The notes beneath the pieces were generated by a model. It saw only the letters and a program-made list of their open reading frames with translations. It made no database searches and was not told the DNA's origin. The translations under genes were made by a program, and so were the position numbers. Positions 926 through 30,648 of a stretch of 40,105 nucleotides of DNA are shown one piece after another. Position 1 is the stretch's first letter, and every line of letters begins with the position of its first letter. Location: NCBI GenBank assembly GCA_031271685.1, contig JAISVH010000076.1, positions 1 to 40,105 on the forward strand. Reading direction: 5' to 3'. This stretch comes from Eubacterium sp. GTDB lineage: Bacteria > Bacillota > Clostridia > Oscillospirales > Ruminococcaceae.

Positions 926-1389
926 CCGCGTTTATGTTCCACGCCTCTTAGGCGGCGGATTCCATGCTGACTATATTCCGTTTAATATTTATAAAATTTA
1001 AAGTTAAACAAGGACTGCGCTGTTTGCGAACAGCGCCCGCAACACGCACGTTGCGGAATCCCTTTTAATTAAAAAATACTAAGGCAATACCGTGCAACTC
1101 TGGCGTGCAAAGCACGCAGTCGGATTTTTAGTCAAACTAGGCAACTTTGCCGCGAATATCCGTTGATATTCAAGGCAAAATTAACGAATCTTGGCGAGAA
1201 ATACGCAAGTGATTTGTGCGTCAAGCCGTTAAGCGTGAGTAGTGCGGTGTTGCCTTAAGTATTTTTTAAGTTAAATGACTATACGTCAGCGGCGGGCGAT
1301 TTTCAATCCCCCACTATAGTTAATTTACTATAACGCTTGTTAAAACACTGGAGGCGGCTCCTCCGCAGATGTTTGAAAATAGTATTATA
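921..1389 (+). repeat. composite hairpin repeat R1 (modules A-B-D, with nested MITE)
   Basis: This repeat fills the whole gap between the RsbW-like gene and hydS. Module A (about 921-973) begins TATAACCGCG and holds a CCGCC/GGCGG hairpin. Module B (about 980-1080, resumed 1256-1275) is a run of palindromes. Module D (about 1278-1389) ends in a long hairpin with CGCAGATGTTTGAA as its right arm. A 174-bp MITE interrupts module B at 1082-1255. The left end overlaps the stop codon of the upstream gene, and the right end lies just before the hydS ribosome binding site. Related copies lie at 4316, 6239, 13884, 15501, 29866 and 30500. No gene is seen here. Confidence 0.85.
1082..1255. mobile_element. 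MITE-like element, copy 1, flanked by TA
   Basis: A 174-bp non-coding element with imperfect terminal inverted repeats: left end AGGCAATACCG, right end CGGTGTTGCCT, which match as inverted repeats except for one base over 11. TA lies on both sides (1080-1081 and 1256-1257). A second copy lies at 22599-22771. Removing the element and one TA restores the palindrome that is uninterrupted in the sister repeat at 15584-15626. TA duplication suggests mobilisation by an IS630/Tc1-mariner type transposase (inference); none is encoded here. Confidence 0.85.
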
Positions 1390-4080: not shown

Positions 4081-4130
4081 ACTTACGCAACTTGCTATAA
4101 TATTATCACCATATATTTTTTATTTATACT

Positions 4131-4302
4131 TATAGCTGATCAGTATAAAAACGCTAAATGCTTTTTTAAGACGTGGCATGCGTCTCGTGCCGCCGAAGGC
4201 GGCTTTATCTTGCTGCATAATCAGCTGCGCACCTTAAGTTTGCCAACGGGCTTTGTCCGCTGTTTTAAAAAACCTTTAGGCTTTTTAAATTGACTGACTA
4301 TA
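4131..4302. mobile_element. second MITE-like element (type E), copy 1
   Basis: A 172-bp non-coding element with TATA-ended, imperfect terminal inverted repeats of roughly 28 bases (left end TATAGCTGATCAGT, right end ACTGACTATA). The interior has hairpins around GCCGCCGAAGGCGGC and AACGGGCTTTGTCCGC. A similar copy in the same orientation lies at 17708-17880. An apparent plus-strand reading frame across it is only the repeat. Confidence 0.8.
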
Positions 4303-4315
4303 TCTCAAATAAAAG

Positions 4316-4428
4316 TATAACCGCGTTTATGTCCCCCGCCTCTTAGGCGGCGGGTTCCATGTTGACTATATAGTTATTAACTATAGCTTGTTAAAACACT
4401 GTAAGCGGCCCCGCCGCAGATGTTTGAA
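4316..4428 (+). repeat. composite hairpin repeat R2 (modules A-D, short form)
   Basis: Begins TATAACCGCG like R1, with the CCCGCC/GGCGGG hairpin. A small TATAG...CTATAG palindrome follows in place of module B, then the D-module end hairpin. With the elements at 4021 and 4131 and the terminator at 4442 it accounts for the gene-poor stretch 3992-4488. Confidence 0.85.
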
Positions 4429-6201: not shown

Positions 6202-6238
6202 TTATTATCCCTCCATAAAATTTAATTAATTATAATTT

Positions 6239-6560
6239 TATAACCGCATTCGTGTCCCCGCCCCTTAGGCGGCGGGTTATAATCGTTTAACTTTAAATTT
6301 GATAAGTTTAAAGTTAAAAGAGGATTGCACTGTTTGAGGACAGCGCCCGCGACTCGCACGCTGCGGAACCCCTTTAACTTAAAAAATATCAAAAAATAAT
6401 AGCGTGAAAGCTGCAGTTAATCTTCACAAACGGATTTACTGCAAAATATCATGCGTTTTTGCAGAAATTATTTTTGTTTGTTTTCAAGTTAATTTAATAT
6501 AACGCTTGTTAGAACATTTGACGCGACTCCGCCGCAGATGTTTTAACAAATAATATTATA
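6239..6560 (+). repeat. composite hairpin repeat R3 (A-B-D with a different insert)
   Basis: Begins TATAACCGC with a CCCGCC/GGCGGG hairpin, then a module B like R1 (paired TTTAACTTTAAA arms, an inverted pair around ACTGTTTGAGGACAGC, and a GCACGCTGCGG segment), and ends with a D-module hairpin at about 6500-6545. The palindrome split by the MITE in R1 carries a different 85-base insert here (6391-6475). The repeat occupies most of the gap 6202-6634 and would be the 5' leader of the Big2 mRNA. Its right edge supplies the -10 box of the Big2 promoter. Confidence 0.82.
6391..6475. mobile_element. 85-base insert at the palindrome apex of R3
   Basis: The segment is bounded by AAAAAATAAT and ATTATTTTT, an inverted pair, and contains an internal hairpin (TGCAGTTAATC with GGATTTACTGCA). 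The position corresponds to the centre of the module B palindrome. It has no second copy in the window, so its mobility is inferred only from its absence in sister repeats. Confidence 0.45.
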
Positions 6561-13883: not shown

Positions 13884-13978
13884 TATAGGCGGCGGGTGAT
13901 TTTCAATCCACCGCTATAGTTTAATTTACTATAACGCTTTTCAAAACACTGGAAGCGGCTCCACCGCAGACGTTTGAA
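13884..13978 (+). repeat. composite hairpin repeat R4 (module D only)
   Basis: It runs from TATAGGCGGCGGGTGATTTT to the D-module end hairpin (AAAACACTG arm, GCGGCTCC centre, CGCAGACGTTTGAA arm). It lies inside the purine operon between purE and purC, with the remaining bases of that gap AT-rich and featureless to me. It may fold in the mRNA between the two cistrons. Confidence 0.82.
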
Positions 13979-15500: not shown

Positions 15501-15759
15501 TTCAAACATCTGCGACGGAGCCGCTTCCCGTGTTTTAACAAGCGTCAGCGGGGAATTGAAAATCACCCGCTGCTAACGTATAGCCCTTTAGCTTAAAAAA
15601 TACTAAGTATTTTTTAAGCTAAAGGGGTTCCGCAACGTACGCGTTGCGGGCGCTGTCCGCAAACAGCGCAATCCTCGTTTAACTTTAAATTTAAAAAATT
15701 TAAAGTTAAACAATTATAACTAGCCGCCTAAGAAGCGTGGACATAAACGCGGTTGTAAT
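15501..15759 (-). repeat. composite hairpin repeat R5 (A-B-D, uninterrupted palindrome)
   Basis: This is the reverse-orientation sister of R1. Read on the minus strand it has module A, then a complete module B with four palindromes in tandem, then the D-module hairpin. It lacks the MITE found in R1 and also the short TATAGTTAATTTACTATA-like segment seen in R1 and R4. It fills the gap between the APH-like gene and the permease gene (15481-15764). Confidence 0.85.
15584..15626. repeat. 43-base perfect palindrome (empty MITE target)
   Basis: Two 21-base arms, CCCTTTAGC... and ...GCTAAAGGG, are exact inverted repeats around the single base 15605. The corresponding palindrome in R1 is split at its centre by the MITE at 1082-1255. 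On RNA it would form one long hairpin. Confidence 0.88.
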
Positions 15760-17685: not shown

Positions 17686-17707
17686 AAAACCCTCCGTTCG
17701 CTAATAT

Positions 17708-17880
17708 TATAGCTTATCAGTTTAAAAACGCTAAATTCGTTTTTAAGGCGCAACATACGCCGCGTGCCGCCGAAGGCGGACTTGACTTGCTACATAGTCA
17801 GCCGCGCACCTTAAGGTGTGCCAACGGGCTTTGCCCGCTTATTAAAAACCCTTTTAGGATTTTTAAACTGACTGATTATA
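17708..17880. mobile_element. second MITE-like element (type E), copy 2
   Basis: A 173-bp relative of the element at 4131-4302 in the same orientation, from TATAGCTTATCAGT to ACTGATTATA. The terminal arms pair over about 28 bases with mismatches. Its right end lies inside the 3' end of the P-type ATPase gene and encodes the last residues YNQSV and the stop codon. Confidence 0.82.
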
Positions 17881-22598: not shown

Positions 22599-22771
22599 AG
22601 GCAATACCACAAGCTCTGGTGTGCAAAGCACGCAGTTGGATTTTTCGTTAAACTAGGCCATTTTACCGCGAATATCCATTGATATTTAAGGCAAAATTAA
22701 CGAAGTTTGGCAAGAAATACGCAAGTGATTTGTGCGCCAAGCCGTTAAGCGTGAGTTGTGCGGTGTTGCCT
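22599..22771. mobile_element. MITE-like element, copy 2, flanked by TA
   Basis: A 173-bp copy of the element at 1082-1255, with the same ends (AGGCAATACC and GGTGTTGCCT) and TA on both sides (22597-22598 and 22772-22773). The two copies are nearly identical by eye over their whole length. It lies between apgM and rluA; the rest of that gap (22774-22841) is AT-rich with no feature I can support. Confidence 0.85.
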
Positions 22772-30426: not shown

Positions 30427-30499
30427 TATCTTATCTCCTTCCGTAAAACTATAGAGTAAATTTGTAACCGAAGATACTTCGATTTGCCGAAGGCAGGTT

Positions 30500-30648
30500 T
30501 TCAAACATCTGCGGCGAAGCCGCTTCCAGTGTTTAACAAGCATCAGCGTGGGATTAAAAATTACCCTCCACTAATGTATAGTTAATTAACTAATAGTCAA
30601 CATGGAACCCGTCGCCTAAAAGACGGGGAACATAAATGCGGTGTTAAT
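30500..30648 (-). repeat. composite hairpin repeat R9 (modules A-D)
   Basis: Read on the minus strand it begins near TTAACACCGC, has the A hairpin, a TTCCATGTTGACTAT link, a TAGTTAATTAACTA palindrome, the D start and the D-module end hairpin. It lies between rpoA and rplQ in the alpha operon, so the polycistronic mRNA would carry its hairpins. Confidence 0.82.

Follow-up and report, generated by a model that had tools for sequence, protein, structure and literature searches.

A miniature inverted-repeat element with IS5-type ends in a Ruminococcaceae genome carries a hairpin core that recurs between unrelated transposon ends

The window, a stretch of 40,105 nucleotides from an assembly of Eubacterium sp., Ruminococcaceae (GCA_031271685.1, contig JAISVH010000076.1, positions 1 to 40,105), carries two copies of a short element (Table 1). 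Copy 1 has open reading frames with HATPase and iron-hydrogenase domains on either side; those beside copy 2 have phosphoglycerate-mutase and pseudouridine-synthase domains. When aligned, the copies match at 155 of 173 positions. From the sequence alone it had been proposed that copy 1 is flanked by TA and splits a palindrome of an intergenic repeat, R1, that is whole in a sister repeat, R5. Both points hold: TA is present at 1080-1081 and 1256-1257, and the joined flanks of copy 1, AAAAAATACTAAGTATTTTTT, are exactly the plus strand of R5 at 15595-15615, so that a filled and an empty site lie in one window. In the own-genome DNA examined, the R1 palindrome is unbroken at three places (window 15584, L028 at 1365 and L220 at 506). 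Because it is whole there, copy 1 is an insertion and no ancestral part of the repeat, and the possibility that all R1-like repeats carry the element at the same ancestral position falls away. The element has no coding gene and is bounded by terminal inverted repeats (GGCAATACC/GGTGTTGCC). Its length is 172 bp, since the outermost A and T of the 174-bp unit delimited earlier are part of a 4-bp duplication.

Table 1. Positions in the window of the two element copies, their flanking duplications and hairpin cores, and the split and whole palindromes
Feature	Position	Strand	Remarks
MITE copy 1, 172 bp	1083..1254	+	ends GGCAATACCG / CGGTGTTGCC; splits palindrome of repeat R1
Left target duplication of copy 1, CTAA	1079..1082	.	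one mismatch to the right flank, TTAA; 4-bp rule based on 58 copies
Right target duplication of copy 1, TTAA	1255..1258	.	
Conserved hairpin core of copy 1	1117..1210	+	covariance model R2, 45.2 bits, E 4.2e-9
R1 palindrome, left part	1068..1079	+	last base doubles as first base of duplication
R1 palindrome, right part	1259..1270	+	
Sister repeat R5, palindrome whole (empty site)	15584..15626	+	palindrome core 15595-15615
MITE copy 2, 171 bp	22600..22770	+	
Left target duplication of copy 2, TTAA	22596..22599	.	
Right target duplication of copy 2, TTAA	22771..22774	.	
Conserved hairpin core of copy 2	22633..22726	+	covariance model R2, 51.1 bits, E 9.9e-11

The host assembly (2.26 Mb in 152 contigs, rated 93% complete) holds at least 41 matches to the 174-bp unit, as assessed by a DNA search in which 40 of 170 first-look candidates were scored; 40 matches span at least 161 of the 174 positions and one is a piece of 37 bases. 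The window element is a MITE of which this genome has 40 or more near-full copies, a number far above chance. The non-autonomous character ascribed to it is supported. When up to two mismatches are allowed, the end pattern TTAAGGCAATACCGCA occurs 161 times in the own genome and its reversed control not at all; for GGCAATACCGCA, with up to one mismatch, the corresponding numbers are 134 and 10. Among the matches listed, copy 1 itself aside, the near-full copies are 86-92% identical to copy 1, which makes recent movement doubtful. In the own-genome DNA examined, 78 end pairings were found, 20 of which were dropped as chance, nested or unlike pairs by rules of length and mismatch, leaving 58 curated copies, 44 with the hairpin core and 14 small ones. 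A recurrent end variant, GTCAA for GGCAA at one or both ends, was seen in L010, L016, L021, L024, L028, L029, L204 and L208.

The 4-bp flanks of the 58 curated copies are identical in 39, one base off in 16 and worse in 3; the duplications seen are TTAA, CTAA, CTAG, TTTA, TAAA, TATA and others. Flank identity over 1-3 or 5-10 bases, assessed on the own-genome end pairings, shows no excess over shuffles. As TTAA is common, the 18 copies with TTAA on neither side are the telling set, and 11 of them have exact 4-bp matches, as compared with a mean of 1.7 and a maximum of 6 in 2000 shuffles. The exact matches include TTTA, TAAA, ATAA and TATA, which rules out a plain TA duplication. A 4-bp YTAR duplication is the rule for IS5. 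Of the 39 exact duplications, 32 conform to YTAR (TTAA 28, CTAA 3, CTAG 1) and seven do not (TAAA 2, TTTA 2, TTAT, ATAA and TATA). Copy 2 does have TA on both sides, as claimed, but its flank is really a 4-bp duplication of TTAA. Listing the flanks across the genome had been set as the test that could refute the TA rule: 14 of the 58 copies do not have TA on both sides, so that TA duplication is refuted, whereas insertion survives, with a duplication of 4 bp.

Transposase searches of the genus gave PF01609 in 21 of 60 genomes and PF13358 in 7 of 60. One autonomous transposon sharing the MITE ends was found, in another genome of the same genus: L228, an insertion sequence of 1389 bp (72 to 1460) with GGCAACACCGCACAAAGCA at both ends, CTAA on each side and an open frame at 106-1047. 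Its transposase belongs to the IS5 family (NF033581, 302 bits; cut-off 140). The right end of the MITE (copy 2 and consensus) equals the L228 end over the first 15 bases and agrees at 18 of 22 in all, the left end at 14 of 22; the right end of copy 1 equals the L228 end over 13 bases. By its ends, then, the window element is an ordinary IS5-type MITE; it is the middle that is unusual. It has the terminal repeat and the 4-bp duplication in common with IS5-family insertion sequences (NF033581; L228), but differs from L228 in having no transposase gene and in carrying a hairpin core, of which L228 showed no trace. The host assembly, at 93% completeness, yielded no homologue of the L228 transposase, and one or more were found in 9 of 71 genus genomes. 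Among the L228-like transposase loci, a window-type end stands on both sides only at L228 itself (= L367); such ends are absent from the L228-like locus L371, in a genome rich in window-type ends, and from the DDE_Tnp_1 loci of the own genome.

The sequence-only reading had taken the element for a MITE of the IS630/Tc1-mariner kind, with TA duplication and a preference for hairpin tips. TA does flank both window copies, the central TA is found on both sides in 44 of the 58 curated copies, and the CTAA and TTAA to the left and right of copy 1 fit TA without any mutation, although they cost one mismatch under the 4-bp rule, a matter of one copy against many. We nevertheless consider this reading highly improbable, and an IS630 origin was rejected: four bases, not two, are shared by 11 of the 18 non-TTAA copies, the autonomous insertion sequence with the window ends is of the IS5 family, the host assembly, 93% complete, has no match to DDE_3 (IS630), and the DDE_3 loci of 7 of 60 genus genomes have no window-type end. 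Nor was a preference for hairpin tips established as a rule when the 58 sites were compared with shifted controls. With any centre near the site allowed, 9 of 10 paired positions were reached by 2 of 58 sites and 1 of 348 controls, and mean pairing was 5.79 at the sites and 4.93 in the controls, but the duplication, which is mostly TTAA and a palindrome in its own right, counts towards these values. When it was excluded and only even centres were allowed, the means were 3.21 and 3.11.

In a DNA search of 60 relatives, 8 genomes matched, the own genome included. The matches in other genomes lie within positions 32-148 of the element, with the exception of one G019 match that covers 1-53, and in most of those relatives the ends are unlike the window type. 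An exact 21-base core pattern matched 58 stretches in contigs of the GTDB collection, which belong to 10 MAGs (9 labelled Oscillospiraceae, 1 Bacillota), and had no match in viral contigs; the consensus of the own family had no match in phage and plasmid collections. With a core profile, 130 core instances of differing sequence were collected, 93 of which were assigned to 21 end types (48 to the window type) and 37 to none, the latter including a number cut by contig ends. Many core matches lie within about 100 bases of a contig end (L058, L064, L076, L077, L089 and others). Since these repeats probably break short-read assemblies, core counts based on MAGs would be low. Intact parental insertion sequences also tend to drop out of short-read MAGs.

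The 45 core elements of the 20 non-window end types, all from same-genus genomes, are 158-164 bp long. Their boundaries were set with flank rules in mind, and with these boundaries nine end types have TA on both sides (24 of 24 elements), seven the same TNA triplet, TTA or TAA (12 of 13), three the same ANT triplet, AAT or ATT (5 of 7), and one TTTA in its single element. In the TA types a duplication is indistinguishable from a conserved end; the triplet types get independent support from their variable middle base. Homologous cores lie between unrelated ends. L031 and L044 agree at 67 of 68 core positions and 8 of 22 end positions, L053 and L050 at 66 of 68 and 7 of 22, and L095 and L080 at 66 of 68 and 8 of 22; L002, of the window type, and L044, of an IS630-ended type, agree at 62 of 68 and 5 of 22.

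Several of these end types could be matched to transposons. L254 is an IS630 element (a 351-aa frame, NF033545 at 241 bits, TA on both sides) whose ends agree with the TTGCTCCCCCAATTAAACC end type at 28 and 26 of 32 bases. L261 and L264 (both G017) end in TAGTCGATTAACTTAAA, adjoining an IS630-type reading frame cut by the contig end, and this end agrees at 19 of 21 bases with the right end of another end type. L237, of 670 bp with ATT on both sides, matches the IS5 profile at 115 bits, which is below the cut-off of 140, and agrees at 17 of 20 bases with the AGACCTCTTGCG end type. Partial likeness to further end types was seen in L247 (IS5) and L256 (IS630), and L227 has one end like a further type, without its partner end. 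For most end types no transposon match was found, and several matches are partial or one-ended. As the end types match both IS630 and IS5 elements, the same core rides with the ends of at least two transposase families. Searched with the core model, 46 transposase loci gave no core inside an autonomous insertion sequence; the two matches lie outside delimited elements, at L233 beside the insertion sequence and at L243 beside a degenerate transposase gene. At about 2045-2200 of L243 (G002), a core-bearing palindrome with one end GGGAACCTCTAAAAACC adjoins this degenerate DDE_Tnp_1 gene.

The window end type also bounds palindromes that have no core, of 35-83 bp in the own genome and 30-61 bp in G014, G032, G009 and G016. 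In G014 and G035 the same ends bound elements of 161-173 bp, in which the outer segments of the hairpin are the same and the inner stem is different. By eye, the small elements of the own genome resemble deletion products with junctions at short repeats, or copies of a single arm made by fold-back; as they look like such products of the full element, they were not taken as acceptors. Two 55-bp near-perfect palindromes, L190 209-263 and L172 229-283, join one MITE arm to the reverse complement of that arm, the product expected of fold-back replication at GCGTGCAAAGCACGC. Cores or core-like hairpins broken by a further hairpin were seen in L062, L064, L050, L061, L165 and L357.

The fold of the core was examined in alignments. 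A1 holds 39 hand-picked cores of 129, with L042 among the picks though outside that listing. A2 holds 27 cores of different end types, 12 of A1's 39 being left out for insertions, odd ends or divergence (both L007 elements, L019, L028, L061, L081, L148, L151, L152, L155, L162 and L178). A4 holds 35 hand-picked order-wide and genus cores, without the near-duplicates L269, L278 and L288. A 35-pair hairpin leaves 91.2% of the A2 cells paired (36-48% in slid controls), with both sides changed in 23 of 35 pairs (shuffled mean 12.2) and a covariation score of 0.335 (shuffled 0.136); in RNAalifold's own fold, 18 of 29 pairs are doubly changed. In A4, 87.7% of cells are paired (slid 41-51%), 32 of 34 pairs are doubly changed (shuffled 23.1) and the score is 0.598 (shuffled 0.201, slid at most 0.170); in these comparisons the hairpin had been derived from sequences of the set itself, and kinship among them inflates the contrast with shuffles, against which the slid controls guard. 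Stem pairs thus show compensatory change. The best-conserved letters flank bulges, CAAGGC on the left and AACGCAGT on the right. No element matched Rfam 15 above the gathering score, three overlaps (L271, L283 and L294) falling below it.

The signal is strand-specific. Among the 1186 pair cells of A4, G.T outnumbers A.C by 106 to 25 (7 of the 25 in one column), and in A2 by 98 to 16, counts in which a few old fixed pairs weigh heavily, as they are of sequences and not of events. Moreover, L095 scores 107.6 bits with the model in sense and 33.9 in antisense. The excess of G.T over A.C and the far higher sense scores fit folding of a single strand, RNA or ssDNA. The core may act as a folded single strand, and we lean towards RNA, to which we give somewhat less than twice the weight of ssDNA. 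Orientation relative to genes showed no clear sense bias among 27 elements (9 sense, 15 antisense, 3 other, by a crude ORF call), and gene orientation, at 9 against 15, was set aside as a sign of transcription.

Beyond the genus, model R1 matched 53 of 394 genomes of the order, in 34 of 168 genera (E up to 0.001), and model R2 matched 22 of 398 genomes of the phylum, in 18 of 267 genera (E up to 1e-4); in both searches ten candidates per genome were scored under stricter filters, and the E-values are rough. In the order and phylum sets, the ends of the elements vary again, as judged by eye. Two separate opposed cores were found in 10 of 40 order-wide loci fetched (L302, L306-L310 and L320-L323), and L325, L326 and L328 are weaker or shorter cases. 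In G289 and G103 the opposed cores share one pair of ends, so that the core is an off-centre module of these longer elements. With opposed double cores, each strand would have one core in sense, an arrangement that would suit RNA read both ways as well as ssDNA. In G330, L338 has tandem cores in the same orientation, at 228-342 and 354-468.

One element of the phylum set, L366, has matches in two plasmids of Streptomyces (E 9e-4), and the stretch matched was found at 53 places in 27 plasmid records, of Streptomyces in every case. Nine of these loci were fetched; seven have annotation nearby, and in all seven the match is intergenic, as far as an incomplete gene table allows. In the eight loci compared, the hairpin is present in all and the ends differ. 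With model R2 the Streptomyces elements were not found at E up to 1 (two loci searched), and the suggested kinship rests on the sequence of the inner core and on its fold. An alignment of inner cores, A5, was built from 31 loci, of which L340 and L162 gave no stretch and L293, L383 and L386 were left out. It comprises 26 inner cores and draws on both phyla; of the 23 pairs folded by RNAalifold, 21 show changes on both sides, and AAGG and AC do not vary. The core family occurs across Bacillota and, by its inner part, in Streptomyces.

We favor a reading, to which we give a probability of about three in four, in which the MITE is made of two separable modules, IS5-type ends and an old, widespread, imperfect hairpin of ~94 nt. 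The terminal repeats of about 15-20 nt, which match an IS5-family insertion sequence, would form one module; an IS5 transposase supplied in trans would move the element by cut and paste, giving rise to the 4-bp duplication, mostly NTAN. That an L228-type transposase did so in this host we infer rather than observe, since the assembled genome has no copy of the L228 transposase. The other module, the ~94-nt hairpin, would have come, many times over, to lie between the ends of unrelated transposons (IS630-type with TA; IS5-type with 3- or 4-bp duplications). The most likely route for the putative exchange of ends would be recombination inside the hairpin arms, or template switching there. The fold-back palindromes of the own genome suggest that arms are copied within the hairpin, and by such copying an end gained on one side could come to stand on both. 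Being joined repeatedly to unrelated ends, the hairpin lineage would outlive any single transposase, and it most likely persists by changing ends. We hold as evenly balanced a broader reading, in which trans-phylum strand-specific hairpins (RNA or ssDNA), absent from Rfam 15, are a transposase-independent passenger that repeatedly captures the ends of active insertion sequences (IS5 groups, IS630 and others), the structure being kept by compensatory change while the ends, the duplication rule and the mover change.

Other accounts of the core were weighed against that of separable modules. The core could itself be mobile, a hairpin that enters the tips of existing terminal-repeat palindromes by way of single-stranded DNA and is then carried along by the transposases that act on them. 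The existence of coreless terminal-repeat palindromes (30-83 bp), the further hairpin carried by some cores, and the opposed double cores, which in G289 and G103 lie between one end pair, would all agree with this; yet in the own genome the coreless elements have arm sequence and short-repeat junctions in common with the full element, which is what deletion or fold-back would produce (by eye), and we consider such insertion unlikely. It also seems improbable that the compensatory change reflects only correction of palindromes by template switching on DNA, with no selected structure. The elements are near-complete palindromes, and the own genome does contain fold-back products in the form of 55-bp near-perfect palindromes, but such correction should be symmetrical between strands, contrary to the G.T excess in A4 and to sense scores far above antisense, and the conserved letters cluster around bulges (CAAGGC; AACGC). 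Finally, the ends may not have been exchanged at all, a single lineage having slowly altered its terminal repeats after diverging transposases. The constant length of 158-164 bp in the 45 other-type elements and the likeness of a few end types (T05/T06 at 16 of 22, T10/T21 at 14 of 22) speak for slow change; near-identical cores (66-67 of 68) with ends that agree at 7-11 of 22 and follow different flank rules need abrupt change, however, and the ends match two transposase families, which makes this account quite improbable.

BOX and bcr1 are modular or hairpin mobile repeats of Bacillota, and the window element can be likened to them in this respect, by description only. REP/RAYT systems and integron attC sites are strand-specific imperfect hairpins with conserved bulges. 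By eye, no REP tag or attC box was recognised in the core, and the likeness to attC was considered and dropped. The RUP element of Streptococcus pneumoniae is linked to an IS630 element. It is described as having about 100-200 bp, TA at its ends, a target duplication and a stem-loop (PMC2229807). Compared by description only, the window element resembles RUP in all four, but has a 4-bp duplication and IS5 ends. In reports on IS-derived MITEs, such as MITECca01 of Cardinium (PMC9769881) and others (PMC10969869), these elements are presented as derivatives of one parental insertion sequence. They are like the window element in being small and non-coding, with parental IS ends, target duplications, a high copy number and mostly intergenic positions; here, in contrast, one internal hairpin is common to elements with the ends of unrelated IS families. 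We found no description of this hairpin family in the literature covered (PMC8040213, PMC2229807, PMC2267715, PMC10969869 and PMC9769881, each in part, with most subscription papers outside the scope), and it may still be listed among the 3161 candidates of PMC8040213. The usual explanation of a MITE is decay from a single parental insertion sequence, whereas here the interior lasts and the ends change. This turns the origin and role of MITE interiors into a question open to test with covariance models, RNA probing and assays of transposition. A structured family rich in compensating base pairs also comes to light, which occurs across Bacillota and, by the inner part, in Streptomyces, and which has no match above threshold in Rfam 15.

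Two further kinds of repeat were noted in the window. The R repeats form a modular intergenic family with several small palindromes, present in both orientations (921-1379, 4316-4428, 6238-6546, 13889-13978, 15501-15758 and 30498-30642); their modules are found again elsewhere in the genome, and 7 of the 58 curated MITE copies have such a module no more than 120 bp away. A direct repeat of 160 bp, 75% identical between 4130-4289 and 17707-17866, is by inspection unrelated to the MITE.
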